Source: Planctomycetota bacterium (lineage in GTDB: Bacteria; Planctomycetota; UBA1135; UBA2386). From it: a stretch of 64,000 nt of DNA. The notes beneath the pieces were generated by a model. It was given only the letters and a program-made list of their open reading frames with translations, was not told the DNA's origin and made no database searches. The position numbers and the translations under genes were made by a program. Shown here piece by piece: positions 31,474 to 47,172 of the stretch; the first letter of the stretch is position 1, and each line of letters starts with the position of its first letter. The DNA lies in assembly GCA_020849665.1 (NCBI GenBank), contig JADLFX010000011.1, positions 1 to 64,000 on the forward strand. The letters are read 5' to 3'.

Positions 31474-32642
31474 GCGGCTATCGCATCCTCTACCACCACC
31501 GCATCCGGGCCGACGACGGTCAGGCCGTGCACGTACGCGAGCTGATCGGTGCGCTGCGCGCCGAGGGGCACGAGGTCCTGGAATGCGCGCTGGTGGCCAA
31601 GTCCGGCGCGGCCCAGGCCGGCGGCGGCGCGGCTGGCACGGGGTGGCTGCGCCACCTGCGCCTGCCGCGGCTGCTGACCGAGGCGCTGGAGATCGTGTAC
31701 GGGACGGCGGGCGCGCGGCGGGTGGTGGCCGCCGGACGGTCGTTCCGCCCGCACTTCGTCTACGAGCGCTGCGCGCTGCACTGCAGGGTGGGCCTGCTCG
31801 CCGCCCGCGCGCTCGGCGTGCCCCTGCTCCTGGAGGTGAACTCGCCGCACGTCGACGAGATGCGCGCGCTGGGCCTCCTGCGCTTCGCCGCGCGCGCGCG
31901 GGCCAGCGAGCGGATGGTGCTGGCCGGCGCCGACCGGGTCCTGGCCGTCACCCGGGTCCTGGCCGACCTGCTGGTGGCGCGCGGCGCCCGGGCCGAGACC
32001 GTGCGCGTGATTCCCAACGGTGCCGAGCCGGACCGCTACGGCCCCGAGGCCGGCGCGGCGTCCCGGACCCTGCGTGCGGGACTGCGCCTGCCGGGCGAGG
32101 CGTTCCTGCTAGGCTTCGTCGGCTACCTGCGGCCCTGGCACCGCCTCGATCTCGTGCTGGAGGCGATGCGCCGGCCCGGCCTCGAGGCCCTGCACCTGGT
32201 CCTGATCGGCGATGGTCCGGCGCTGCGGCCCACCCTGGCCGCGGCCGGGAGCGCAGGGCTCGCCGGTCGCGTGCATGCGCTGGGCCGCGTGCCGCCCGCC
32301 GACCTGCCGCCGCGGGTGGCCATGTGCGACGCGCTGCTGGTGCCGGCGATCAACGCGTACGCGTCGCCGCTGAAGCTCTTCGACGCCCTGGCGGCGGGCG
32401 TGGCGGCCGTGGCGCCGCGCCAGCCGAATCTCGAGGAGGTGTTGCGTGACGGCGAGGACGGGGTGCTCTTCCCGCCCGGCGACGCCGCGGGCCTGGCCGA
32501 ACGCCTGCGCTGGCTGGTGGACGACCGCACGCGCGCCGTGCGCCTGGGCGCGGCCGGGCGGGCCAGCCTGCTCGCGCACGAGTGGACCTGGCGGGGCAAC
32601 GCGCGCCGGGTCGTGCGGGCCTTCGAGGAGGTGGCGCAGTGA
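31470..32642 (+). CDS. GT4-family glycosyltransferase
   Basis: 390 aa from GTG 31470, 4-bp overlap. GT-B fold: YHHRIRADDGQAVHVRELIGAL at the start, LLLEVNSPHVDEM, RVIPNGAEPDRYGPE hinge, FVGYLRPWHRLDLVL, and VPAINAYASPLKLFDALAAGVAAVA in the donor site. The start motif is frequent in glycosyltransferases of exosortase-linked EPS clusters. It overlaps the exosortase gene by 4 bp. Confidence 0.86.
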   Translation: MSGYRILYHHRIRADDGQAVHVRELIGALRAEGHEVLECALVAKSGAAQAGGGAAGTGWLRHLRLPRLLTEALEIVYGTAGARRVVAAGRSFRPHFVYERCALHCRVGLLAARALGVPLLLEVNSPHVDEMRALGLLRFAARARASERMVLAGADRVLAVTRVLADLLVARGARAETVRVIPNGAEPDRYGPEAGAASRTLRAGLRLPGEAFLLGFVGYLRPWHRLDLVLEAMRRPGLEALHLVLIGDGPALRPTLAAAGSAGLAGRVHALGRVPPADLPPRVAMCDALLVPAINAYASPLKLFDALAAGVAAVAPRQPNLEEVLRDGEDGVLFPPGDAAGLAERLRWLVDDRTRAVRLGAAGRASLLAHEWTWRGNARRVVRAFEEVAQ

Positions 32643-33457
32643 GCCGCTTCGCCGTGTTCTTCCTGCCCCTGCTGATCGCGTATGCCGCGACCCTGCATTG
32701 GATGTGGGAGGTGTGGACCCTGCCCGAGTCGTACTACTCGCACGGTCCGCTCGTGCCGCTGGTGGCCGCCCTGGTCGTCTGGGCGCGGGCCGCGGCGTGG
32801 CGCGACCTGCCCGCGGCCACCGACCTGCGCGGCTTCCGGCTGCTGGCCCCGGCGCTTGCGCTGCATCTCGCTGCCGCCGCGCTCACCATCGACTCGCTCT
32901 CGGCCGCGAGCCTGGTCCTGGCCGTTCCCGGCGCGGCGTGGCTGGCCCTGGGCGCGGCGCGCGCGCGCGCCCTTGCGCCAGTGCTCGGCCTGACGGCGTT
33001 CTGCGTTCCCCTGCCGCTCTTCGTGAGCGGCCGGGTGGCGTTCACGCTCAAGGAGTGGGCCACCGGCGCTGCCCTGACGCTGGCCAACGGGACGGGCCTG
33101 GGTGCGACCCGCGCCGGCGCGTTCCTGCACGTGCCCGGCCAGGACGCCCCGCTCCTGGTGGCCGATGCCTGCGGCGGCCTGCGTTCGCTCGTGGCCCTGG
33201 CCACCCTCGGGTACTGCATCGCGTTCTTCCTGGGCGAGCAGCGCGGCGCACGGCGCTGGATCCTCCTGGCCCTGGCCCTGCCGATCGCGTTCGTGGTGAA
33301 CGTCGTGCGCATCGTGGCGCTGTGCTGGCTGGCGCGCCTGCACTCGGTGGAGTTCGCGGCCGGCAACGGCCACGACCTCGTCAACGCCCTGGCCTGGATC
33401 GTGGCGTTGGTGCTCCTGGTGCTCTGCGACCGCCTGCTGTCGCGGAGGCGGGCATGA
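32639..33457 (+). CDS. xrtA: Exosortase (XrtA-like transpeptidase)
   Basis: 272 aa from GTG 32639, mostly hydrophobic with about eight helices. SYYSHGPLVPLVAALVVW is the N-terminal exosortase signature. The catalytic triad is present: Cys178 in ADACGGLRS, Arg224 in NVVRIVALC, His245 in NGHDLVN. Exosortases cut C-terminal PEP-CTERM-like sorting signals and attach the protein to another molecule. No protein with such a tail is encoded in the window, so substrates are elsewhere. epsI follows in a 4-bp overlap, as in the XrtA group. Confidence 0.92.
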   Translation: MSRFAVFFLPLLIAYAATLHWMWEVWTLPESYYSHGPLVPLVAALVVWARAAAWRDLPAATDLRGFRLLAPALALHLAAAALTIDSLSAASLVLAVPGAAWLALGAARARALAPVLGLTAFCVPLPLFVSGRVAFTLKEWATGAALTLANGTGLGATRAGAFLHVPGQDAPLLVADACGGLRSLVALATLGYCIAFFLGEQRGARRWILLALALPIAFVVNVVRIVALCWLARLHSVEFAAGNGHDLVNALAWIVALVLLVLCDRLLSRRRA

Positions 33458-34089
33458 GGGCCGGCATCGGACGCCGCGGGGTGCTCGCCGGCGCGCTCCT
33501 GTGGACGCTGGCTCCGGCCCTGCTCTGGCTCAGCCTGCACCGCCCGTTCGCGCCGAGCCAGGGGCGTGCCGCCGCGCTGCCCGCGCGCCTGGGCGGGTTC
33601 ACCCTGGTGGACGACTACGCGCTGACCCCGCGCCACCTCGAACTGCTGGGCACCGCGGATGCCGTGTGGCGGACCTACCGGGACGGGCGCGGGCGCGAGA
33701 TCGTGGTCGTGCTCGTGCACCACGGCGCCAACTGGAAGAGCGTGCATCCGCCGCACCTGTGCATCGAGGGCAGCAACATGACCATCCGCAGCGATGGCCG
33801 CGCGGCGCTGCCGGGCGGCGGCGAGGCCGGCCGGATCCTGGCCTGGTCGCACGACCAGCAGCGTCTGGCGGTGAACCTCTACGCGTACGGCGCCCGCGGC
33901 CTGGTCACGCCGAGCTACGCGCGCTTCGTGCTGCACCATGCGCCGCGCGCGCTGTTCCGCGCCGCCACCGCCGGCTTCCTGATCCGCGTGGCGGCCTGGG
34001 CCGACGGCGAGGACGCCGCCGCTGGCGAAGCGCTCTGCGCGGAGTTCCTGGCCCTCGCGCTGCCGGCGGCCACCGAGGTGCTGCCGTGA
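33454..34089 (+). CDS. epsI: EpsI family exosortase-associated protein
   Basis: 211 aa. One N-terminal membrane anchor (GVLAGALLWTLAPALLWLSL) leads to a periplasmic domain with LPARLGGFTLVDDYAL, HHGANWKSVHPPHLCIEGSNM and SHDQQRLAVNLYAYG. The HPPxxCIEG motif is the hallmark of EpsI (DUF3485). The family is always near exosortases and is sometimes fused to them; its biochemical role is unsettled. It overlaps both neighbours by 4 bp. Confidence 0.9.
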   Translation: MRAGIGRRGVLAGALLWTLAPALLWLSLHRPFAPSQGRAAALPARLGGFTLVDDYALTPRHLELLGTADAVWRTYRDGRGREIVVVLVHHGANWKSVHPPHLCIEGSNMTIRSDGRAALPGGGEAGRILAWSHDQQRLAVNLYAYGARGLVTPSYARFVLHHAPRALFRAATAGFLIRVAAWADGEDAAAGEALCAEFLALALPAATEVLP

Positions 34090-34964
34090 AGCACGCGCTC
34101 TCGGTCGACGTCGAGGACTGGTTCCAGGTGCTCAACATGCGCGACGCCGTGGCGCGCGAGCGGTGGCCGGATCTGCCGCTGCGCTGCGTCGACGCGACCC
34201 GCCGTCTGCTGGACGTGCTGGCGCGGCACGAGGCCAGGGCCACGTTCTTCTTCCTGGGTTGGATCGCCGAGCGAGCGCCGGAGCTGGTGGCCGACGTGGC
34301 CCGTGCCGGGCACGAGATCGGCTCGCACGGCTACGACCACAGGGTGCTCGGCGAGCTGGGACCCGAGGGCTTCGCGACCGACCTGGAGCGCACCGAGTCG
34401 ATCCTGCGCGGGATCACCGGCAGTCGTCCGGAGGTGTTCCGCGCGTGCACGTGGTCGATCACCGGCCGCACGCTCTGGGCCCTGCCCGTCCTGGCCGGGC
34501 GCGGCTACCGCATCGACAGCTCGGTGTTCCCGGTGCTGCACCCCGAGTACGGCATCCGCGCGGCGCCGGCCGTGCCGTACCGGATCACGACTCCGTCGGG
34601 GACGCTGGCCGAGTTCCCGCCGCTCACGCTGCGCGTGCTCGGCCGCAGGCTGGCGGTGGGGGGCGGCGGCTACCTGCGCCTCTTCCCCGTGCGCCTCCTG
34701 GAGGCCGGCCTCCTGCAGATGGAGCGCGCCGGCTGGCCCGGCTGCGTCTACCTGCATCCCTGGGAGGTCGATCCGCAGCAGCCGCGGCAGCGGCTCGGGT
34801 TCCTGCGCGGCTTCCGCCACTACGTGAACTTGCACCGCACCCTGCCCAAGCTGGAGGTCCTGCTGCGCCGCCACGCCTTCACGACCCTGTCGGAGGCCCT
34901 GGCTCAGAGCCCGAGCTGGACCGCGAAGTGCGCCGAGTTCTCCTGGAACGGGCTCTCGGGATAG
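34086..34964 (+). CDS. Polysaccharide deacetylase, exosortase-associated
   Basis: 292 aa from GTG 34086. NodB homology domain: HALSVDVEDWFQV with the DxxDW start typical of the XrtA-associated deacetylases (TIGR03006), ATFFFLGWIAER, HEIGSHGYDHR with metal-binding His residues, RACTWSITGRT and YLHPWEVDPQQPRQ. It likely N- or O-deacetylates the surface polysaccharide. The last 61 bp overlap the 3' end of the opposite-strand TPR gene. Similarity to the family ends near TTLSEALA, so the last ~18 residues may be an extension. Confidence 0.87.
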   Translation: MKHALSVDVEDWFQVLNMRDAVARERWPDLPLRCVDATRRLLDVLARHEARATFFFLGWIAERAPELVADVARAGHEIGSHGYDHRVLGELGPEGFATDLERTESILRGITGSRPEVFRACTWSITGRTLWALPVLAGRGYRIDSSVFPVLHPEYGIRAAPAVPYRITTPSGTLAEFPPLTLRVLGRRLAVGGGGYLRLFPVRLLEAGLLQMERAGWPGCVYLHPWEVDPQQPRQRLGFLRGFRHYVNLHRTLPKLEVLLRRHAFTTLSEALAQSPSWTAKCAEFSWNGLSG

Positions 34965-37900
34965 CCGGCGGCCAGCGCGGCGAAGAGCTCGCGCGCGCGC
35001 GCCTTGGCCTCGGGCGTGGGCAGGGGCAGGTTGGCCAGCGCGCGGAAGTAGAGATGGCTGCCGTCGGCGCGGGGCTCCGTACCGGCGAGCAGTTCCTCCG
35101 CCAGGGCGTAGCGGGCCCCGCGCAGGGCCAGCAGGCCGCGGGCGTAGCGCACGGCGGGAAGGTCGGCCTGTGCGGGCGCCAGGGCGCGTGCCAGGGCGTC
35201 CTCGTCGGAAGGCAGCGAGAGTCCTGACTCCGCCCCGATCCGCGCCACTTCGGTGAGCAGGGCCGGGTCCGGCAGGTACCCCGCGACGGCGCGCAGCTCG
35301 CGCAGCGCGCGCGGCGTCTGGCCGTCCTGGTCCAGCAGGCGCGCGCGCAGGATCCAGAGCCCTACCAGCGACGGGTCGCGCGCCAGGGTCGCGTGCAGGC
35401 GTGCCAGGACCGGGGCGCGACCCTCGCGGCGCGCCAGCCGTTCGAGGCTCTGCACCGCGGTCACGGAGTCCGGATCCTTGCCGGCGGCGAAGAGGTCGAG
35501 GTGGGCGCGCAGGAGCGCGATCTCGCGGTTGCGCGCCGCGACGGCCGCGGCGTCGTTCGGACGGCGGAGGCCGCTCGCGGCCGGCGTGGCGAGGTCCACG
35601 ATCAGGTGCACGAGGGATCCGTACGCGCCGTACTGCGTGCGCGATGCCTCCGCGCGCTCCAGCAGGCGCTGGCGCGTGGCGTCGTCGGGGGTGCGCGCGA
35701 GGATCGCCCGGGCCAGGCGCGTGTACTCGGCGTAGAAGGCGCTGCGCCCCGCCTCGGGGACCTTGGCCTCCAGGAAGGCGAGCAGCTGGCGCGCGGCCTC
35801 GACCTTGCCGGCGAGGATCAGCGTCTCGACTTCCTGCACGCCCGCACGGCTGGCCTCGGGGGAGATCACCCAGAGGTTGCCCAGGAGCTGCACCGCGCTG
35901 TCCACGTCCCCCTGGCCGACCAGGATCATCTCCGCCACGCCGCGGGTGGCCACCGCCACCATGCGTGGCGTGGCCAGCTTGCCGCTCTCCTGCACGATGC
36001 GATGCAGCTCGTGGACCAGGTAGGGATCGGCCAGACGGGCCGGATCGCTGCGCTCCAGGATGCGCAGCATCTCGTCGTAGGCGGCCACGTAGCCCGGCTG
36101 CAGGAGCAGCACGCCGGTGAGGGTCTCGAGTGCGGGGATGCGCTCGTTGGCGGCGGCGAGGGCGCGGGCCAGCAGGAACCGCGAGGTGGCCTGCGGTGCC
36201 ATGCGCTCGTCCAGCGCGCGTGCCAGGGCCACGGCCCGCGGCGCCAGGCCGGCGATCGCCGGCAGGGTGAGCACGTCGAGGAGCAGTTCCGGCTCGCGCG
36301 TGGCGAGGACGCGGATCTCCTCGTGCAGGCCGCTGCCCTCCGTACCCGGCGCGAGGAGCGCGCGCAGGGCCAGCGCCGCCACGTCGGTCGGCGCGTCGCG
36401 CAGGTGCGCCTCGAGGACGGGCTGGGCCAGCGCCCCCAGGCGCAGCCGTGCCGCGACCGCGGCGCCGGCGAAGTCGGTCACCTTCACGCCGCGGAACACC
36501 TCGCGGGCCTCCTCGATGCGATTGCCCAGGGCGAGCAGCGCGGCCAGCGGCAGGGCCGCGGCCCGCCCGTCGGCGAACGTGCACGCGGCGGTGAGGTGGC
36601 GCTCCGCCGCGGCGTCGCGCCCCGCCGCGAGGGCGAGGGTGCCCGCCAGGAGGAAGACGCGGCCGTTGCGGAACGGCGCGGCCACCGGGCCATCCAGGGC
36701 CGGCTCCAGCACCCGATAGGCCGCCTCGGGCTGGCGGCGTTCGGCGAGGATCTCGGCGAGGTCCACGAGCCGGGCCGGGCGATCGCGCAGGAGTTCGCGC
36801 GCGGCGATCGCGGCGACGGCCACCGGTTCCGGCGCACCGCCCTCGGCCAGGAGCGCGGCATAGCGCAGCGCGGCTTCGCCCGCGCTGGTCAGGTCCTCGG
36901 GGAACACCACGGGGATCTGCTGCAGCAGCGCGAGCGCGGCCTCGCGCGCGCCGGACCGGGCCAGCACGTCGGCCACGCGCAGCAGTCCCACGGCCTCGGC
37001 AGGCTTGCGGGCCAGGAGGTTCGCGCCCAGGAGCTGCGCCGGTCCCAGCTCGCCGCGCGCGAGCAGCGCCTCCAGCATGCGGCGGGCGATCCAGGGGTCG
37101 AAGCCGCCCTGGAGGAGCAGGTCGAGGGTGAGGTCGTCCTCGCTCTGGCCCGTGGCGCGGCGCGCGGCGCGCAGCAGGGGCAGGGCCTCCGCATCGCCGG
37201 GATGGAACTGCAGCAGGGTCTCGAGCGCGCGGGCCGCCTCGTCGTGGGCCGCCATGCGCGTGGCCGCGCGCGCCTGCAGGAGGCGCGGCCAGCGCGCCCA
37301 GTTGAAGAGCCGCGCGGCGCGGCGCGCGCACCCAAGGGCGATCCAGGCATGGCCGCGTTCGAGCGCGAGTTCGCCGGTGGCGAGCAGCAGCACGTCGTCG
37401 CTGACGTCCTCGGGCGTGTCGCGGCCCAGCGTGAGGCACTGCGCCAGGAGCGCCTCGGCTCCCTGTCCCGACTGGGCCGCGGCCTTCTCGCTGGCCTCCG
37501 CGCGCACCCGGAGTGCCGCCTCGTCCTGCCCTGCGAGCTGCAGGCCGCGGCTGGCGTCCATCTTGGCCGGCCCGAAGTGGCCGAGGGCGACCTGCTGCCG
37601 GGCGCGATACAGGAACGCCTCCGGCCGCGCCGGGCGGACCTTGATCCACAGGGCGAAGTGCTCGTCCAACCGTGCCTGCGGCGCGCCACTCGCCTCGAGG
37701 GCACGCAGGCGCCGGTCCATCGCCCAGTGGAAGGCGTCGATCGGCCCGCGCGGCGGAGCCTGCACGCTGGCGTCCTGCACGTACCACCAGAGATGGTCGG
37801 CGACCTGCGCCGGGTGGCCCGCCAGGTCCTGGTCGAGGGCGGCCATCGCCTGCACCTCCGGCATGAGGTCCAGCATGCGCTTGCCCTGGATGTTCCACGC

Positions 37901-38962
37901 CGCGGCGACCAGCCTGGCCAGCTGCGCGGCGTCCTTGCGGCGCCACAGCACCTCGGCCTGGCCGAGGAGCATCCGGCGGGCCTCCGGCAGGAGCCGGCCC
38001 TCGCGGGCGAGGTCGACCAGGCGGTCGACCGGCGCGACCCGCTGGACCAGCTCCAGCAGCGCGTCTTCGCGCCCTTGATCCAGGTGCAAGGCGCCCAGAT
38101 CCAGCGCGGCGAGGGTGCGCCACGAGTGGTCGAAGCGCCGCAGGTAGATCTCGGCCAGCGCCTGGAGGTCGTCGAAGCGGCGGCCCTGGCGCAGGGCGAA
38201 CGCCAGTCCGCTGTAGGCCGCCACCGGCTGGCCGGGGAGTTCCAGGGTGCGGCGGAAGTGTGCCTGCGCCTTCGCGGTCCACGTGCGGATGGCGTCGATC
38301 TCCGCGTCGTAGCGCCCGGTGACCGCGTCCTCGGGACGGTTCTGGTAGAGGATCTCCTGGAAGCGCTGGCGCCCGCGCAGCGCCAGCGGATCGTCGGCGG
38401 CGCGGTAGAGCACCGGCAGCAGCGCCTCCAACACGTCGCGGTAGACCTCCGCGGCCAGCTTCGCCCTCAGCTCCTGCACCAGCTTCGCGATGCGCTCCTG
38501 GTAGACGACCTGCGCCGCCTCGCCCGCCAGCTCCGTGGCGCGGCCGTGATCCGGGTGCTTGTCGAGGAAGCCCAGCGCCTGCCGGTAGGCCTCCTCTGCC
38601 TTCCCGCTCTGCACCAGGAGCGTGTAGCGCTCGAGGGCGAGGCCCGGTTCGTCGGGGGCGTGGGACTCGACCAGGCGGTTGAGGTCGGCGAGCGCGAGTG
38701 TCTTGTTGTCGAGCGCGAGGTGGGCGCGGTACCGCACCTCCAGGATCTGGCGCCGGAGATCGTTGTGACCCGCCGGGCCCAGGTCGCGCTCGGCGGTGTC
38801 GAGGATGCGCACCGCTTCGCTGTAGCGACCCGTGGCGAACGCCTGCTGGGCGTTCTGCAGGGCGGTCTTGGGGCCGGAGAAGCCCAGGAGCGCGTAGCCC
38901 AGCGTCAGGACCAGCCCCAGGCACACGAAGCCGAAGAAGATCAGCAGCGTCCGGCGCAACAT
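34904..38962 (-). CDS. Large membrane-anchored TPR protein (PrsT-like by context)
   Basis: 1352 aa. A single N-terminal anchor (MLRRTLLIFFGFVCLGLVLTLGYALL) has no lipobox, and the rest is helical repeats of TPR type across the whole length, for example NAQQAFATGRYSEAVRILD near residue 37. No enzyme motif is seen. In proteobacterial exosortase loci a long TPR lipoprotein (PrsT) accompanies PrsK/PrsR; this gene is downstream of a kinase-like and an activator gene in the same order, though it is not a lipoprotein. It probably scaffolds the export or sorting complex in the periplasm. Confidence 0.8.
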   Translation of the reverse strand: MLRRTLLIFFGFVCLGLVLTLGYALLGFSGPKTALQNAQQAFATGRYSEAVRILDTAERDLGPAGHNDLRRQILEVRYRAHLALDNKTLALADLNRLVESHAPDEPGLALERYTLLVQSGKAEEAYRQALGFLDKHPDHGRATELAGEAAQVVYQERIAKLVQELRAKLAAEVYRDVLEALLPVLYRAADDPLALRGRQRFQEILYQNRPEDAVTGRYDAEIDAIRTWTAKAQAHFRRTLELPGQPVAAYSGLAFALRQGRRFDDLQALAEIYLRRFDHSWRTLAALDLGALHLDQGREDALLELVQRVAPVDRLVDLAREGRLLPEARRMLLGQAEVLWRRKDAAQLARLVAAAWNIQGKRMLDLMPEVQAMAALDQDLAGHPAQVADHLWWYVQDASVQAPPRGPIDAFHWAMDRRLRALEASGAPQARLDEHFALWIKVRPARPEAFLYRARQQVALGHFGPAKMDASRGLQLAGQDEAALRVRAEASEKAAAQSGQGAEALLAQCLTLGRDTPEDVSDDVLLLATGELALERGHAWIALGCARRAARLFNWARWPRLLQARAATRMAAHDEAARALETLLQFHPGDAEALPLLRAARRATGQSEDDLTLDLLLQGGFDPWIARRMLEALLARGELGPAQLLGANLLARKPAEAVGLLRVADVLARSGAREAALALLQQIPVVFPEDLTSAGEAALRYAALLAEGGAPEPVAVAAIAARELLRDRPARLVDLAEILAERRQPEAAYRVLEPALDGPVAAPFRNGRVFLLAGTLALAAGRDAAAERHLTAACTFADGRAAALPLAALLALGNRIEEAREVFRGVKVTDFAGAAVAARLRLGALAQPVLEAHLRDAPTDVAALALRALLAPGTEGSGLHEEIRVLATREPELLLDVLTLPAIAGLAPRAVALARALDERMAPQATSRFLLARALAAANERIPALETLTGVLLLQPGYVAAYDEMLRILERSDPARLADPYLVHELHRIVQESGKLATPRMVAVATRGVAEMILVGQGDVDSAVQLLGNLWVISPEASRAGVQEVETLILAGKVEAARQLLAFLEAKVPEAGRSAFYAEYTRLARAILARTPDDATRQRLLERAEASRTQYGAYGSLVHLIVDLATPAASGLRRPNDAAAVAARNREIALLRAHLDLFAAGKDPDSVTAVQSLERLARREGRAPVLARLHATLARDPSLVGLWILRARLLDQDGQTPRALRELRAVAGYLPDPALLTEVARIGAESGLSLPSDEDALARALAPAQADLPAVRYARGLLALRGARYALAEELLAGTEPRADGSHLYFRALANLPLPTPEAKARARELFAALAAGYPESPFQENSAHFAVQLGL

Positions 38963-39060: not shown

Positions 39061-40431
39061 TCACGAGAGGCCGTACCTGCGCATCTTGTGGAAGAGCGTG
39101 CTCCGGTTGATGCCGAGGCTCTCCGCGGTGGCGAGGCGGTTGCCGCCGTGGTGCTCCAGCGCGCGCTGGAGCAGCGCCTTCTCGGCCACTTCCAGGGCGG
39201 CGCGCAGGGGCAGGAGGTGGGCGTCGTGCGGCAGACCCGGTTCCGTGCCGTGTGCGCCGGGGCGCCGCGTCAGCTCCTCGGGCAGGTCCGCCGGAGTGAT
39301 CACGTCGCCCTCCGCCAGGACGACGGCGCGCTCCATCACGTTCTCGAGTTGGCGCACGTTCCCCGGCCACTCCGCCTGTTCGAGGATCCGCAACGCGTCC
39401 GGGGCGATGCCGCGCAGGGTCTTCTGGTTCTCGTGGGCGAAGCGTTGCAGGAAGCGCTCGGCCAGCACGGGGACGTCGGAGCGGCGTTCGCGCAGCGGCG
39501 GCACGTGCAGGTTGACGACGTGGATCCGGTAGTAGAGGTCGGCGCGGAACGTGCCGGCCTGCACCGCCTCCGCCAGATCGGAGTTGGTGGCCAGGATCAC
39601 CCGCACGTCGACCGGGATGGGCCGCGAGTCGCCCACGCGTTCCAGCACGCGATCCTGCAGCACGCGCAGCAGTTTCACCTGGAAGCCGGGCGAAGACGTG
39701 CCGATCTCGTCCAGGAAGATCGTGCCGCCGTGCGCGGCCTCGAACTTGCCGGCGCGATCCTTGACGGCGCCGGTGAACGCGCCGCGCACGTGGCCGAAGA
39801 GCTCCGACTCGAGGAGGCTCTCGGGCAGCGCCCCGCAGTTCACCTCGACGAAGGGCCCCTTGCCGCGCGGCGAGAGGCTGTGGATCGCGCGCGCCAGCAG
39901 GGTCTTGCCGGTGCCGGACTCGCCGGTGATCAGCACCGTGCTGCGGCTGCCGGCGACCGCGCGTGCGGTCTTGAAGAGCGCGGTCATCTTCGCGTCGCCG
40001 CCGACCAGGTTGAAGAGGCGCAGGCGGTCGTCGAGCGCCGCACGCAGGTCCTGGTTCTCGCGCAGGAGCCTGGCCTTGTCGAGCGCGCGCTCGATCGCCA
40101 GCGACACCTCCTCGGCGGAGAGCGGCTTGCTGAGGAAGTCGTCGGCGCCCTCGCGCATCGCCGCCACGGCGTCCTCGACCGTGCCGAACGCCGCCAGCAG
40201 GATGAAGGCCTGGTCGGCGTGCAGCCGGTGTGCCTCGCGCAGCAACTGGAGGCCGTCCATCCCGGGGAGCTGCAGCTCGGCCAGGACCAGGTCCACGTCC
40301 TCGTCGGTGAGGGTGCGGAGCGCCGCGGCCCCGTCCTCGGCGAGGACCGGATCGTGGCCGCGCCGCCGCAGGTGCTCGAGCAGGTCCTGCTGGGTGGCAG
40401 GATCGGGGTCGGCGATGAGGATTCTGGCCAT
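39061..40431 (-). CDS. Sigma-54-dependent activator with degenerate receiver domain (PrsR-like)
   Basis: 456 aa, NtrC-type. The receiver (~1-120) keeps the acidic pocket (DPD) and Lys103 in FLSKPL. The phospho-acceptor position is Glu52 (VLAELQLPGMDG; GAG codon read on the strand) and the conserved Thr/Ser is Ala80. The AAA+ domain is intact: GESGTGKT, the sigma-54 contact loop GAFTGAVKDRAGKFE, GGTIFLDEIG, and FRADLYYRI. A Fis-type helix-turn-helix ends the protein (NRLATAESLGINRSTLFHKM). It should activate sigma-54 promoters, perhaps without phosphorylation. It is preceded by the kinase-like gene (130-bp gap) and followed by the TPR gene (98 bp). Confidence 0.9.
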   Translation of the reverse strand: MARILIADPDPATQQDLLEHLRRRGHDPVLAEDGAAALRTLTDEDVDLVLAELQLPGMDGLQLLREAHRLHADQAFILLAAFGTVEDAVAAMREGADDFLSKPLSAEEVSLAIERALDKARLLRENQDLRAALDDRLRLFNLVGGDAKMTALFKTARAVAGSRSTVLITGESGTGKTLLARAIHSLSPRGKGPFVEVNCGALPESLLESELFGHVRGAFTGAVKDRAGKFEAAHGGTIFLDEIGTSSPGFQVKLLRVLQDRVLERVGDSRPIPVDVRVILATNSDLAEAVQAGTFRADLYYRIHVVNLHVPPLRERRSDVPVLAERFLQRFAHENQKTLRGIAPDALRILEQAEWPGNVRQLENVMERAVVLAEGDVITPADLPEELTRRPGAHGTEPGLPHDAHLLPLRAALEVAEKALLQRALEHHGGNRLATAESLGINRSTLFHKMRRYGLS

Positions 40432-40561: not shown

Positions 40562-41614
40562 TCAGGACGCCACGGGCAGGGCGATCTCCAGGAGCACGGT
40601 GCGGTCGGCGCGGCGGCGGGCCAGCGCCTCGCCGCCATGCGCGTGGACGATGGTCTGCACGAGGAGCAGGCCCAGCCCGAGGCTGGTGTTGCGCAGGACG
40701 CGGCCGAGCCTGTGGGGTTCGAAGGTCGGTGGCAGCTGCCAGTCGGCGATGGCCGGCGCGAGCAGTTCGAGGTGCAGGATCACGCGATCGCCCTCGACCC
40801 TGGCGGTGAGGCCGCGCAGCGGTTCCTGGCGGGCGATCTCGATCGCGCAGCGCAGCAGGTGCTCGAGGGCGGCACCCAGCAGCTCGGGATCGCCGCGCAG
40901 CGCCGCGTCGGTGGCGGTGGGGTCGAGGAAGAGGGCGACCTCGCAGCCCACCCGCGCGCGCACCGTGCGCGTCGCCTCCGTGAGCAGGGCGGCGAGGCCG
41001 AGGCGCTGGCCCTGACCCAGCGCGCACACGGCACGGGTGAACGTGCGCACCTTCTCCATCGCGGCGTGGATGCGCTGCAGGCTCGAGTCCATGGCGCGCA
41101 GGCGGCCCTGCATGTCCGTGACCTTGCCTTCCCCGCCGCCCTGCTGGATCAGCTGCAGGTGTCCGGCCACGAAGAGCAGCGGGTTGTTCACCTCGTCGGA
41201 GATCGCGCGGGCGAACTCGACCAGGACCTCCATCGCCTCGGCGGCGAGGGGATGCGTGACCAGACCCAGCGCCTCGGCGACGTCCTCCGGGGCGAACGGC
41301 TGCAGCAGCAGCGCGGCGCCCAGTTGGCGTGCCATGGGCTTGAGCACCGCCTCGCGCTCGCGCGCCACGACCAGCACCACGCTGAGTGCCGGCTGCAGGC
41401 TGCGCAGGAGGCGCAGGGCGCCGATCTCCGCCTCGCCGGGCTCGCCCTGCGCGTGGATCAGGACGCGCGGTTGGAAGTGCAGGATCGCCTCGCCGTCCGC
41501 GAACAGGTCCGCGAACGCCCGGACCAGCGGGCGGCTGGGCAGCGAGTGCAGCGCCGTGAGGAGCTGACCCGGCTCGCCGGACACCATGGCGATGCGAGGC
41601 TGTCCGACGTTCAT
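40562..41614 (-). CDS. Histidine-kinase-like protein lacking catalytic residues (PrsK-like position)
   Basis: 350 aa from ATG 41614. The track start at 41863 adds 83 Arg-rich residues from non-coding sequence. The N-terminal ~120 residues look like a receiver-type alpha/beta domain without its phospho-Asp pattern. A HisKA-like helix pair follows: VEFARAISDEVNNPLLFVAGH has Asp140 where the phosphorylated His belongs. In the ATPase-like region the N-box is HLLRCAIEIA (Cys for Asn) and no DxGxG loop is found, though GLGLLLVQTIVHAHGG matches the late G2 region. It is soluble. It probably senses or binds without phosphotransfer. Confidence 0.8.
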   Translation of the reverse strand: MNVGQPRIAMVSGEPGQLLTALHSLPSRPLVRAFADLFADGEAILHFQPRVLIHAQGEPGEAEIGALRLLRSLQPALSVVLVVAREREAVLKPMARQLGAALLLQPFAPEDVAEALGLVTHPLAAEAMEVLVEFARAISDEVNNPLLFVAGHLQLIQQGGGEGKVTDMQGRLRAMDSSLQRIHAAMEKVRTFTRAVCALGQGQRLGLAALLTEATRTVRARVGCEVALFLDPTATDAALRGDPELLGAALEHLLRCAIEIARQEPLRGLTARVEGDRVILHLELLAPAIADWQLPPTFEPHRLGRVLRNTSLGLGLLLVQTIVHAHGGEALARRRADRTVLLEIALPVAS

Positions 41615-41697
41615 CGTGCTTGCGTGCGAGAAGGTCCCCGGCGGCGCGAGGGGTGCGCCACGGCGCCGCAGCGTAGCCCGCGCACGGCGACGTGCCA

Positions 41698-41714
41698 TTG
41701 GCGCCGCGCACGCA
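41698..41714 (+). promoter_or_regulatory. Possible sigma-54 promoter (-24/-12)
   Basis: TTGGCGCCGCGCACGCA has GG and GC at the 12-base offset required for -24/-12 elements, with a matching TTGGC start. The TT before GC is absent, so the match is partial, and in DNA this GC-rich a chance hit is quite possible. It lies between the divergent kinase-like gene and the zinc-ribbon gene (ATG 41749), which suits control by the activator encoded at 39061-40431. Confidence 0.25.
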
Positions 41715-41748
41715 ATCCGGAGGGCCGATCCGGCCGATAGGAAGCGCG

Positions 41749-42189
41749 ATGCCCATGAGCGAATACCCGGCCGGACCGTGCACGCGCTGTGGCTCCGCCG
41801 TCGAGGACGGCCGGTGCCCGCGCTGCACGGGTGGCGACGAGCACGGCGCGCGCCTCGTGGCACTGCCGACCCTGCGCGATGGGGCGGCGCGGAGCTCGGG
41901 CCCGGTACGCCTGGTGCGCGAGTACAAGGGCGCGACGGTCAGCGACCTGCTGATGCGCGACGAGGCGGTGGCGAACCGTCTGCCGGGTGAGCTGCGTGGC
42001 GTGCTCGACGCGGTGCGGGAGGGCAATCTCGCTGCAGCGGAACAGGCGCTGGACTCCGCCTTGGGAAGGGTGCTGCGCGGCCCGGGTGCGGCGCGCTCGC
42101 GGCGCCGGGCGGTCTGGTTCTGGGTGGTCGTCGGACTCTGGTTCCTGATGTTGGCGACCCTGCTCGTCCTGCACTCGCGCGGGCTCTGA
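41749..42189 (+). CDS. Small zinc-ribbon protein with C-terminal membrane helix
   Basis: 146 aa from ATG 41749 (AGGAAG 4 bases before it), or 144 from ATG 41755. CTRCGSAVEDGRCPRC is a zinc-ribbon with two CxxC pairs. A middle helical region (YKGATVSDLLMRDEAVANRL) follows, then a basic stretch (RSRRR) and a single C-terminal helix (WFWVVVGLWFLMLATLLVL). It is tail-anchored, with the ribbon probably in the cytosol. I do not know the family. It is divergent from the kinase-like gene and heads the GT2 pair, 109 bp away. Confidence 0.7.
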   Translation: MPMSEYPAGPCTRCGSAVEDGRCPRCTGGDEHGARLVALPTLRDGAARSSGPVRLVREYKGATVSDLLMRDEAVANRLPGELRGVLDAVREGNLAAAEQALDSALGRVLRGPGAARSRRRAVWFWVVVGLWFLMLATLLVLHSRGL

Positions 42190-42298: not shown

Positions 42299-43333
42299 GT
42301 GCCAGACGTGAATCCGGACGCGAGCGGCGCGCCTGCCACGGATCCGGCGCGACGTAATCCGGTCGATCCCGGTCCGGCCGCCGCGCTGCACCTCAGCGTC
42401 GTGGTGCCGCTGTTCAACGAGGAGCGCAACGTCCCCGTGCTGCACGAGGCCCTGACCCACGCGCTGCGCGGCATCGGCTGCACCTACGAGATCGTGGTGG
42501 TCGACGACGGCTCCAGCGACGGCACGCCGCAGCTGCTGCGCGCCCTGGCGCAGGACGATCCGCACCTGCGCGTGATCCAGTTCCGGCGCAACTACGGGCA
42601 GACCGCGGCGATGTCGGCCGGCTTCGACCACGCGCGCGGCGAGTACGTCGTGTCGATGGACGGCGACCTGCAGAACGACCCTGCGGACATCCCGCGGCTG
42701 CTCGCGCTGCTGGAGGAGGGCTACGACATCGTGTGCGGATGGCGCCGGCACCGGAAGGACGCGTGGCTGTCGCGCCTCCTGCCCTCCAAGCTGGCCAACT
42801 TCCTGATCCGCCGTGCCACGCGCGTGCCGATCCACGACACCGGGTGCTCGCTGAAGGCGTATCGGGCCTGGGTGGTGCGCAGCCTCGACCTGTACTCCGA
42901 CATGCACCGCTTCATCGCCGCGCTCGCCGCGGGCCTCGGCGCGCGCGTCGCGGAGATCCCGGTACGCCATCATCCGCGCCGCTATGGCCGGTCCAAGTAC
43001 GGGCTCGGCCGGATCTTCCGGGTCGTGGCCGACCTGTTGACGATCAAGATGCTGATCCAGTTCTCGGCTCACCCGATCCGCTGGTTCACGCTCCTGGCGC
43101 TGCCCCTGCTGCTGGCCTCCCCCGCGCTCCTGGTGATCGGCACGTTCCGCTTCGACGCCGGGGCCATCGAGCTGGCCAGCCGCTTCGACACCTACTACAT
43201 GACCGCCGCCGCGGTGACGACGATGGTGGCGGTGAACGTCTTCCTGCTGGGTTTCCTGGCCGAGCTGCAGATCCGTGCCTCGCGCTTCTTCGCGCGCCGG
43301 ATCTCGGTGGCCGCCAAGGAGGCCGCACAGTGA
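42299..43333 (+). CDS. GT2-family glycosyltransferase (DPM1/ArnC-like)
   Basis: 344 aa from GTG 42299. A standard GT-A domain opens with LSVVVPLFNEERNVPVL, then VVVDDGSSDGT, RRNYGQTAAMSAGF and SMDGDLQNDP with the metal-binding DGD at residues 121-123. GSLKAYR-type region GCSLKAYR and RYGRSKYG are typical for enzymes using polyprenyl phosphate. Two C-terminal membrane helices complete it. It probably moves a sugar to a lipid carrier. It overlaps the fused gene by 4 bp; the next protein begins with a degenerate copy of this domain. Confidence 0.9.
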   Translation: MPDVNPDASGAPATDPARRNPVDPGPAAALHLSVVVPLFNEERNVPVLHEALTHALRGIGCTYEIVVVDDGSSDGTPQLLRALAQDDPHLRVIQFRRNYGQTAAMSAGFDHARGEYVVSMDGDLQNDPADIPRLLALLEEGYDIVCGWRRHRKDAWLSRLLPSKLANFLIRRATRVPIHDTGCSLKAYRAWVVRSLDLYSDMHRFIAALAAGLGARVAEIPVRHHPRRYGRSKYGLGRIFRVVADLLTIKMLIQFSAHPIRWFTLLALPLLLASPALLVIGTFRFDAGAIELASRFDTYYMTAAAVTTMVAVNVFLLGFLAELQIRASRFFARRISVAAKEAAQ

Positions 43334-45471
43334 ATCCCGCCACCGCGTTGCCCCGCCCCCCCGCGCCGGGCGAGGCCGTCACGCCGGTGGCGTCGGCCGG
43401 CACGCCGGAGCGCGCGCCGCTGGTGTCGGTGGTGATCGCCGTGACCGAGAACGGCGTGCCGGTGCGCCAGCTGGTGGAGGCCTATGGCACACCCCTGCGC
43501 GACGCGGCCTACGACCACGAGTTCGTGTTCGTCCTCGACGGCGTGAGCCCGGCGGTCGAGCGCGAAGTGCAGGAGCTGCGCGCCTCCCTGCCGGTGGATT
43601 GGGTGCGGCTGCAGGGCAGCGGCCTGGGGGAGTCGATCGCGCTCTCGGCGGGCGTGGGGCGCGCCGCGGGGCGCTTCATCCTGAACGCACCCCAGTACCT
43701 GCAGGCGGAGCCCGCCGACGTCGTGAAGGTGGTGCAGGCCCTCGAGCAGGGCGCGGACTTCGTGACCACGTGGCGCCATCCGCGCGTGGATCCGTGGTTC
43801 AACCGGCTGCAGTCGCGCTTCTTCAACTGGGTGCTGCGCTTCGTCATGGGCATCCGCTTCCACGACCTCAACTCGTCGCTGCGCGGCATGCGGCGCGAGG
43901 TCCTGGAGGAGGTGAACGTGTACGGCGAGCTGTACCGCTTCCTGCCCGTGCTCGCGCAGCGCCAGGGCTTCCACGTCGTGGAGGTCAAGGTCCGGCATCG
44001 CGAGGAACGCGGGCGCAAGGGCTTCTTCGGGGTCGGCGTCTACACGCGACGCCTGCTCGACATCCTGGCGATCTCGTTCCTGACCCGGTTCACGCAGAAG
44101 CCGCTGCGCTTCTTCGGCATGCTCGGCTTCGCGTCGATGCTGGTCGGATTGGCGCTCTGCGCCATGCCCGTGTGGGAGAAGCTCACCGGCGAGGCCGGCT
44201 TCCAGAACCGGCCGGTCGTCGTGCTGGGCGCGATCCTCGTGGCCTTCGGGATCCAGCTGATCGGGTTCGGGCTGGTGGGGGAGATCATCATCTTCACCCA
44301 GGCCGCGAACCTGCGCGGCTACAAGATCCAGGAGTCAGGGGCCGCGCCCGGGGACGCGGACGCGGCACCCGCAGGCGCGCCCGCCCGCGGCGCGACGCCG
44401 GCCGCGCCCGAGCCGGCCGCGGCGTCCGCCGCGATGCCGGTGCGGGTGCGCGAACTCGTGCCGGGCGAGGACGCACGGTTCGACGCGTTCGTGCGCCAGC
44501 ACCCGCTGGGCACGTTCTTCCACCTCAGCGGCTGGCGCAAGGTGGTGGAGGACGTGTTCCATCACGAGCCCCACTACCTGGTCGCCGAGCAGGGCCGCCA
44601 GTGGCGCGGGGTCCTGCCGCTCTTCCTGGTGCGCAGCCCGTTCCTGGGCCGCAACCTCGTGAGCGTCCCGTACGGCGTGTACGGCGGCGTGCTGGCGGAC
44701 GCGGAGCCCGTGCAGCAGGAGCTGTTGGCGGCGGCGGAGGCGCTGGGACGGGCGCAGCGCGCCGGCTACGTGGAGCTGCGCCATCTCGAGGCGCGCCCGG
44801 GCGAACGGCGCCGCTCGCAGCTCTACGTGACCTTCCGCAAGGTGCTCCCGGCCACCGCCGAGGCCATCCTGCAGGAGATCCCGAAGAAGGCGCGCGCCGA
44901 AGTGCGCCGCGCCCGCGACCGCTTCGGCCTCACCTGCAGGCCCGAGGACGACCTGGCCACGCTGCACCGGCTCTTCTCCGCCAACAAGCGCCGCCTCGGC
45001 TCGCCGTCGCTCCCGCTCGCCTGGTTCGAGGCGCTGCGCGAGGAGTTCGGCCGGCAGGTCGTGGTGCACGTGGTGCGCACGCCGCAGGGCGAGGCGATCG
45101 CCGCGGTGATGAGCTTCTGCCTGGGCGACACGGTGTACGCCTACTACTCGGGCTCGCGCGAGGACCAGCACAAGACCGGCGTCAACGACTTCCTCTACCA
45201 CGAGATCATGCGCTGGGCCCTGGAGCAGGGCTACCGCCGCTTCGACTTCGGCCGCAGCCGCCGGGACACCGGCGCGGCGGCGTTCAAGCGCAACATGGGC
45301 TTCGCCGAGGAGCCCCTGCACTACGAGTACCTGCTGCTCAAGGCCGGGGCGACGCCGCCCGAGTTCCACCCCAGCAACCCGCGCCTCGGCCTGCCGCGCA
45401 AGGTGTGGGCGCACCTGCCGCTCTTCCTCACCGCGCGCCTGGGCAGCCGGCTCTCGCGCTACCTGCCCTGA
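43330..45471 (+). CDS. Fusion: degenerate GT2 domain plus FemAB/GNAT acyltransferase
   Basis: 713 aa from GTG 43330. Residues ~30-335 align along their length with the preceding GT2 (SLRGMRREVLEEV, RHREERGRKGFFG, two C-terminal helices). The acidic motif is gone: ILNAPQYLQAEP replaces SMDGDLQNDP, and VLDGVSPAVE replaces the VVDDGSSDGT block. An Ala/Pro linker (~338-368) joins a FemAB domain from Met369: HPLGTFFHLSGWRKVVEDVF, NKRRLGSPSLP, YYSGSREDQHKTGVNDFLYHE, FDFGRSRRDTGAAAFKRNMGF. That half fits the PEP-CTERM/exosortase-associated FemAB family (TIGR03019). It may tether an acyl or aminoacyl transfer to lipid-linked glycan. The frame is unbroken across the junction. Confidence 0.85.
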   Translation: MNPATALPRPPAPGEAVTPVASAGTPERAPLVSVVIAVTENGVPVRQLVEAYGTPLRDAAYDHEFVFVLDGVSPAVEREVQELRASLPVDWVRLQGSGLGESIALSAGVGRAAGRFILNAPQYLQAEPADVVKVVQALEQGADFVTTWRHPRVDPWFNRLQSRFFNWVLRFVMGIRFHDLNSSLRGMRREVLEEVNVYGELYRFLPVLAQRQGFHVVEVKVRHREERGRKGFFGVGVYTRRLLDILAISFLTRFTQKPLRFFGMLGFASMLVGLALCAMPVWEKLTGEAGFQNRPVVVLGAILVAFGIQLIGFGLVGEIIIFTQAANLRGYKIQESGAAPGDADAAPAGAPARGATPAAPEPAAASAAMPVRVRELVPGEDARFDAFVRQHPLGTFFHLSGWRKVVEDVFHHEPHYLVAEQGRQWRGVLPLFLVRSPFLGRNLVSVPYGVYGGVLADAEPVQQELLAAAEALGRAQRAGYVELRHLEARPGERRRSQLYVTFRKVLPATAEAILQEIPKKARAEVRRARDRFGLTCRPEDDLATLHRLFSANKRRLGSPSLPLAWFEALREEFGRQVVVHVVRTPQGEAIAAVMSFCLGDTVYAYYSGSREDQHKTGVNDFLYHEIMRWALEQGYRRFDFGRSRRDTGAAAFKRNMGFAEEPLHYEYLLLKAGATPPEFHPSNPRLGLPRKVWAHLPLFLTARLGSRLSRYLP

Positions 45472-46061: not shown

Positions 46062-46652
46062 TCAGCGCCCCGTCCCGCACTCCCCGTCCAAGCCACCCAG
46101 GATCCATGCCACCGCGCCGGGCAGGTCCTCGGCCACGTGGGCCGGTGGCGATGCCCTGCGCCGCAACTCCGCGAGGTGCTCCTCCCAGGGCTTGCCGCTG
46201 CGGACCAGGATCGTGCGCAGGGGGGTGCCGGCCGCGGGCAGGAGATCGCGTGCGCTGTCGCCGACCAGGAACGAGCGCGCGAGGTCCAGCGCCGGGTAGA
46301 GCCGCACGGCCTCGTGCAGGAGCCCGGGCGCGGGCTTGCGGCAGGCGCATTCCGTGCCGTAGGGGCGGCCCGCAGCCTCGGGATGGTGCGGGCAGTGCAG
46401 GATGGCGTCCAGGGCGTGGCCCACGCGCGCCTGCAGGGCCTCGTGCACCCGTGCCAGCCGGGCCTCGTCGTAGAGGCCCCGCGCGATCCCGGACTGGTTG
46501 GTGAGGACGATGCAGCGGAAGCCCGCGCGGCGCAGGAGCCCGAGCGCCTGCGGCACACCGGGCAGGACCTCCAGCTCGCCCACGTCCGTGACGAACCCCC
46601 GCTCCCGGTTCAGGGTGCCGTCCCGGTCCAGGAACACCGCGCGCTCGCTCAC
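46062..46652 (-). CDS. gmhB: Heptose-1,7-bisphosphate phosphatase-like HAD protein
   Basis: 196 aa from GTG 46652. The track start adds 27 residues of Pro/Ala-rich leader. HAD-IIIA phosphatase: FLDRDGTLN holds the nucleophile Asp, TNQSGIARG the second motif, and VGDSARDLL the metal-binding motif III/IV. The loop CPHHPEAAGRPYGTECAC is the Cys/His zinc site specific to GmhB. It would make D,D-heptose 1-phosphate for lipopolysaccharide core or glycan synthesis. No other heptose gene is near. Confidence 0.88.
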   Translation of the reverse strand: MSERAVFLDRDGTLNRERGFVTDVGELEVLPGVPQALGLLRRAGFRCIVLTNQSGIARGLYDEARLARVHEALQARVGHALDAILHCPHHPEAAGRPYGTECACRKPAPGLLHEAVRLYPALDLARSFLVGDSARDLLPAAGTPLRTILVRSGKPWEEHLAELRRRASPPAHVAEDLPGAVAWILGGLDGECGTGR

Positions 46653-46710
46653 CGCGCCACCTGCCCCCCGTGCCGGGGCTGCGCCCGAGCCGCGCGTGGC
46701 GGGCGCCGCG

Positions 46711-47172
46711 TCATTCCCGGGCGCCGGCCGCACCCTCGGGCGCGGCCTGGGAAGCCGGGTCCTCGCGCAGCGGGGCCTGGCCCTCGCGGTAGAGCCGCGC
46801 GTGCACCTCGTGCGGCACGTAGCGCCACTTGATGGCGAACGGCGTCACCACGTCCCCGGCAGTCCAGAAGAACGGGAACGACCACACCTCGATCGCCGCG
46901 GCGCCGTCGATCCACCGCGAGCCGTAGAGCTGGCGGTAGTGGGTGACCTGGCGCTCCTCGTCGCTGAAGCCGCGCTTGCGCAGGGTGATGACGTGGTGGT
47001 CGCCGAAGAAGCCGTCCAGCTCCAGGAGCGCCGGCGTGGTCTTCCCCGTGGGCTGGCCGTCGACCAGGATCTCGGCGCCGGGGGGCGTGCTGGTGACCAG
47101 CACGCTGGGGTCCCCGTCCAGGAACGTGCAGGCCGGGAGGAAGGCCAGCAGTGCGGCAGCCAGGGGGCGCAT
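46711..47172 (-). CDS. PEGA-domain lipoprotein
   Basis: 153 aa. The N-terminus MRPLAAALLAFLPACTF carries a lipobox (LPAC). A single PEGA repeat follows: VLVTSTPPGAEILVDGQPTGKTTPALL, a domain thought to bind surface glycans or layers. The rest is a beta-type region and an acidic tail. PEGA lipoproteins are common in planctomycetes. The gene is 58 bp upstream of gmhB on the same strand and may share its transcript. It is divergent from the SH3-like gene at 47335. A TAGGAT near 47170 may belong to its promoter. Confidence 0.83.
   Translation of the reverse strand: MRPLAAALLAFLPACTFLDGDPSVLVTSTPPGAEILVDGQPTGKTTPALLELDGFFGDHHVITLRKRGFSDEERQVTHYRQLYGSRWIDGAAAIEVWSFPFFWTAGDVVTPFAIKWRYVPHEVHARLYREGQAPLREDPASQAAPEGAAGARE

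Follow-up and report, generated by a model that had tools for sequence, protein, structure and literature searches.

The window analysed here is a stretch of 64,000 nucleotides from a planctomycete contig (JADLFX010000011.1). At its centre of interest one open reading frame joins a glycosyltransferase family 2 (GT2)-like domain with altered catalytic motifs (called pseudo-GT2 for simplicity) to a FemAB transferase domain. The relevant genes and features are listed below.

32582-33457, forward strand: exosortase (TIGR02602, 122 bits)
34089-34964, forward strand: TIGR03006 polysaccharide deacetylase, located upstream of the module here and in Pla86 and Pla163
39061-40431, reverse strand: AtoC-like sigma-54 response regulator, a divergent neighbour conserved in 15 of 20 neighbourhoods
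40562-41863, reverse strand: histidine kinase, a divergent neighbour also found in ten related neighbourhoods of family f1
42299-43333, forward strand: intact ArnC/GtrB-type GT2 (polyprenyl-phosphate glycosyltransferase) with DGD motif (PF00535, 128 bits)
43316-43322, forward strand: Shine-Dalgarno sequence AAGGAGG, 7 nt 5' of the GTG start at 43330
43330-45471, forward strand: fused pseudo-GT2/FemAB gene, product of 713 residues (translation, AF2 model, 41 fused homologous loci)
43405-44334, forward strand: pseudo-GT2 domain (residues 26-335)
43690-43698, forward strand: PQY in the position of DGD (residues 121-123)
44005-44007, forward strand: E226, aligned with the GtrB R200-equivalent arginine (acceptor phosphate) in the homologue alignment
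44101-44301, forward strand: two long C-terminal helices, taken as membrane helices (residues 258-285 and 295-324; AF2/DSSP)
44335-44463, forward strand: Ala/Pro-rich linker, predicted to be mostly disordered (AF2), of varying length between homologues
44473-45468, forward strand: FemAB (GNAT-fold) transferase domain, TIGR03019 (profile match, Foldseek)
46062-46733, reverse strand: GmhB-like HAD-IIIA phosphatase, a convergent neighbour conserved in 17 of 20 neighbourhoods

The GTG start of the fused gene overlaps the TGA stop of the upstream GT2 (GTGA). Residues 26-335 are collinear with this upstream enzyme (30% identity over 296 aligned residues, E=2e-36) and score 21.9 bits against the Pfam GT2 cut-off of 23.3, i.e. 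below threshold. Residues 382-713 match TIGR03019 with 329 bits (cut-off 260) over positions 1-330 of the 330-position model, and this domain is the single PF13480 match in the whole genome. The AF2 model of the fused protein is a confident two-domain model (mean pLDDT 87.6): a full GT-A fold is followed by two long helices at its C-terminal end, a disordered linker (low-confidence residues 326-361) and a complete FemAB fold. Foldseek searches matched the first half to ArnC; the intact GT2 likewise has ArnC structures as its best PDB relatives (9hwj, 9bhc and 8vxh) and as its fold match (9asc). The coordinates, frame and two-domain content given in the initial annotation are thereby confirmed, as are the collinearity with the upstream GT2, the complete FemAB domain behind the linker and, if the two modelled helices are taken as membrane helices, their retention. 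An assembly or sequencing artefact as the source of the fusion was ruled out by 41 other loci carrying the same fused frame.

Aligned with the intact GT2 and anchored on the shared Q125, the DGD triad is replaced by P121-Q122-Y123. The loss of DGD had been noticed before with APQ as the replacement, a reading that is off by one residue, Q125 being common to both proteins; the reported alteration of the VVDDGSSDGT block stands, this segment reading VLDGVSPAV with its second aspartate (D70) retained. Conservation of the lost motif was checked in homologues: DXD is absent from 101/101 non-redundant pseudo-GT2s, the second aspartate being tyrosine in all 101 and the first proline in 89, and is present in 103/103 adjacent intact GT2s. 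The arginine that is invariant in intact GT2s at the GtrB R200-equivalent position is glutamate in 100/101 pseudo-GT2s, and the SKYG motif is gone from essentially all of them. The pseudo-GT2s retain arginines in the places of GtrB R122 and R125 (R149 in 101/101 and R152 in 100/101), and for the proposed catalytic acid D157 of GtrB no equivalent could be placed with certainty in the pseudo-GT2. In GtrB, activity is lost on mutation of donor-site or acceptor-site residues, including R122 and R200 (PMC4728340). Judged from these alignments, the pseudo-GT2 has lost the GT2 catalytic motifs and probably also glycosyltransferase activity. The same fusion with an intact DXD, which the initial annotation had named as evidence against its reading, was searched for among the homologues and none was found.

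A locally degenerate GT2 copy, as initially supposed, is not what the homologues describe: the pseudo-GT2s form an old, strictly conserved paralogue family, a single clade apart from the intact GT2s with a support of 100/100. Of their near-invariant residues 33 are specific to them and 25 are shared with the intact paralogue, in which a further 28 positions are invariant that are not so in the pseudo-GT2. Both proteins are equally conserved (median identity to the window of 0.498 for the pseudo-GT2 and 0.487 for the intact GT2), which together with the specific near-invariant residues argues for a selected function and not for decay. Conserved pseudo-GT2 positions that line the pocket in catalytic relatives are Y123, Q125, R149, R152, D179, N181 and E226. 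Recent pseudogenisation or an artefactual joining of two genes has only the missing motif in its favour; it is refuted by about 100 non-redundant homologues from many families that are in the identical state and by the 41 fused loci, so that we assign it a negligible probability. The weaker matches L149-L153 proved to be ordinary GT2s. Among polyprenyl-phosphate GT2s, a second case of a conserved paralogue that has probably lost its activity is not known to us. Compared with ArnC, GtrB and DPMS (9asc, 9hwj, 5ekp, 5mlz), the pseudo-GT2 shares the GT-A fold, the juxtamembrane part, the two C-terminal helices and the R122/R125-equivalent arginines, but differs in the missing DXD, R200-equivalent arginine and SKYG, in its own invariant residues and in the FemAB that is fused to it or follows it.

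The three genes occur in the order intact GT2, pseudo-GT2 and FemAB across many planctomycete families. In the first homologue search matches were obtained in all 61 genomes, most of which have the three genes in this order; family f5 was without the module. In three families (f1, f3 and f6, the 41 loci of the collected set) one frame encodes both pseudo-GT2 and FemAB, with linkers of varying length that are mostly Ala/Pro/Glu-rich, and outside these families each has its own gene, the order being unchanged and sometimes one gene lying between them. The unfused arrangement being far more widespread, the fusion looks like a derived form of a wider three-gene module. Most genomes in the analysis are MAGs; the complete genomes Pla86, Pla163 and Poly30 encode the unfused module. 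Among the best 80 of 329 loci kept from a scan of named genomes, the source is a planctomycete wherever the record title gives a fitting group, some titles saying "bacterium". Plasmid records gave, among the matches listed, only FemAB and GT2 matches, none covering 80% of the fusion. In agreement with the earlier remark that the architecture is not known from described exosortase systems, no account of a GT2-FemAB link was found in the literature searched, where FemAB with PEP-CTERM appeared in one table entry.

Most unfused loci encode a PMT/ArnT-like GT-C, which lies either between pseudo-GT2 and FemAB or behind FemAB. Among loci with enough sequence, such a neighbour was present at 35/45 unfused versus 0/31 fused loci; of the seven GT-C seeds several match PMT families weakly, and L140 does so solely via its similarity to the other seeds. 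GT-C genes adjoin or lie within the unfused module at L134, L135, L136 and L140, and also at unfused loci such as L102 and L111. Since GT-C genes are common in module genomes, one may act from elsewhere in the fused lineages. The phosphatase at 46062-46733, which scores below the GmhB cut-offs, is a conserved neighbour of FemAB whether or not the lineage has the fusion. Between deacetylase and response regulator lies a gene for a protein of 1352 residues (34904-38962, reverse strand) that has no Pfam match at E<=1e-4 and has homologues in six neighbourhoods.

The window exosortase is part of an XrtA-type polysaccharide locus, and the FemAB domain had been called "exosortase-type". We used a sample of 392 planctomycete genomes, in which the pseudo-GT2 was called at E<=1e-80 and counts were tallied by hand from tables. 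The pseudo-GT2 was present in 61/392 genomes, all of which (61/61) encode a TIGR03019 FemAB, a family found in 97/392. TIGR02602 exosortase was present in 22/61 pseudo-GT2 genomes and absent from 39/61, 33 of these 39 being also without PF09721. The module as a whole is thus independent of exosortase, and dependence on it was rejected; the TIGR03019 match is sound and "exosortase-type" is a family name only. Pla86 and Pla163 are without TIGR02602, yet carry the TIGR03006 deacetylase upstream of the module. At the pseudo-GT2 homologues L145 and L148, FemAB is missing from the fetched locus and present on another contig of the genome.

Several observations concern further copies. The genome of the window contains a second, divergent exosortase-like gene (G000:C59:37662-38426, reverse strand) that scores below the TIGR02602 cut-off and above that of PF09721. 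The related genome G003 has a second, more distant FemAB (G003:C209:20493-21494) about 2.5 kb from a PMT_2 match. FemAB (TIGR03019) occurs without pseudo-GT2 in 36 sampled genomes, 30 of which have TIGR02602 exosortase, indicating that FemAB can work alone.

The FemAB half resembles, by Foldseek, FemX and the aminoacyl-tRNA-dependent synthases Sbb17 and Sba18, solved with streptothrisamine (1xe4, 9wqx and 9wqy; TM-scores to the target of about 0.68-0.78). The likeness extends to the FK..GF region, which is kept in 96/97 FemAB domains, and the CoA motif is not conserved. Both the fold and the unconserved CoA motif suggest that the domain may use aminoacyl-tRNA. For FemX and the streptothricin synthases we know of no GT2 partner. 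With Gly-tRNA, a related FemABX-like enzyme named Orf11 makes glycylthricin from streptothrisamine (PMC12945691). The match to the XrtA/PEP-CTERM FemAB family TIGR03019 is full-length and above cut-off; the difference is that FemAB is here fused to or near a pseudo-GT2 and that 39/61 of the genomes have no TIGR02602. MprF, an aminoacyl-tRNA lipid transferase acting on phosphatidylglycerol, also joins a membrane domain to a GNAT-fold transferase, but the fold match is weak and its membrane domain is unrelated to that of the fused protein.

The coupling of pseudo-GT2 and FemAB is well supported by gene order, by fusion and by co-occurrence in every sampled pseudo-GT2 genome. What the pair does is drawn from these likenesses, and we give about even chances to reading the fused protein as a membrane-bound transferase of acyl or aminoacyl groups in which a neofunctionalised GT2 of the ArnC/GtrB type forms the N-terminal half, in a route resembling the Arn pathway. 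The upstream intact GT2 would use a nucleotide-sugar to load polyprenyl phosphate with a sugar, and the pseudo-GT2, alone or in a putative mixed oligomer with the intact GT2, would hold the resulting lipid-linked sugar in its altered pocket, on the cytoplasmic side of the membrane. FemAB, on the flexible linker in the fused form or expressed from the following gene in the unfused one, would then acylate an amino group of the sugar. The group added would most likely be an amino acid supplied by aminoacyl-tRNA; a different acyl carrier could serve as donor, and a polysaccharide or a protein glycan as acceptor. The TIGR03006 deacetylase is a possible source of free amines. The presumed product, a modified sugar, would serve outside the cell as substrate of an ArnT/PMT-like GT-C in most unfused lineages. 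In fused ones it would go to the polysaccharide machinery encoded at the locus, and downstream steps must differ there because an adjacent GT-C is missing. With the Arn pathway (ArnC, ArnD, ArnT) the module has in common a GT2 resembling ArnC and a deacetylase, joined by a PMT/ArnT-like GT-C in most of the unfused lineages; it differs in adding pseudo-GT2 and FemAB, and nothing found here points to Ara4N or lipid A. The loss of R200 and SKYG counts against the proposed mechanism, as it speaks for a mode of polyprenyl phosphate binding other than that of GtrB, if any. Also weighing against it are the 36 genomes that have FemAB without pseudo-GT2, the loci L145 and L148, and the missing adjacent GT-C in fused lineages.

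Other roles of the pseudo-GT2 were weighed against the substrate-binding one. The initial annotation had suggested a membrane tether or lipid-glycan platform, which fits in general, but a plain tether leaves the conserved pocket positions unexplained. That a GT2 remnant merely attaches FemAB to the membrane would agree with the two long C-terminal helices and the flexible linker; however, the GT-A domain is conserved as strongly as a working enzyme, and unfused lineages retain a separate pseudo-GT2 that covalently anchors nothing, making a mere anchor very improbable. The new invariant residues Y123, E226 and R241 at or near catalytic positions, with D70, R149, R152 and D179 retained, could also belong to a glycosyltransferase that still works, either metal-independently or with another donor or acceptor, which we regard as unlikely since both DXD aspartates, the acceptor arginine and SKYG are absent in essentially all homologues.

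A stronger competitor, though still doubtful, is a pseudo-GT2 that needs no ligand of its own and supports or regulates the intact GT2 as its partner in a mixed tetramer, recruiting FemAB to the site of lipid-linked sugar synthesis. The pseudo-GT2 always lies immediately 3' of the intact paralogue and has FemAB as its fusion partner, and GtrB, which has the same GT2 and C-terminal helix architecture, is a tetramer (PMC4728340). Constraint on an interface alone, however, would not obviously explain the conservation of Y123, Q125, R149, R152, D179, N181 and E226. We keep, as a tentative proposal with somewhat more against it than for it, a pseudo-GT2 acting as substrate-binding subunit of a FemAB that would aminoacylate polyprenyl-phosphate-linked sugars in a tRNA-dependent, exosortase-independent manner, widespread in Planctomycetota.

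To our knowledge, a tRNA-dependent aminoacylation step has not been described in lipid-linked sugar metabolism. In the module a GT2 paralogue that is probably dead has been kept by many families, always together with one partner, to which it has become fused. As the pseudo-GT2 is, in the sampled genomes, never found without FemAB and often without exosortase, the role of the "exosortase-associated" FemAB becomes testable, and the unfused module in the complete genomes is open to genetics where a system exists. The conserved module suggests that membrane-linked sugars are decorated in a manner not described so far.
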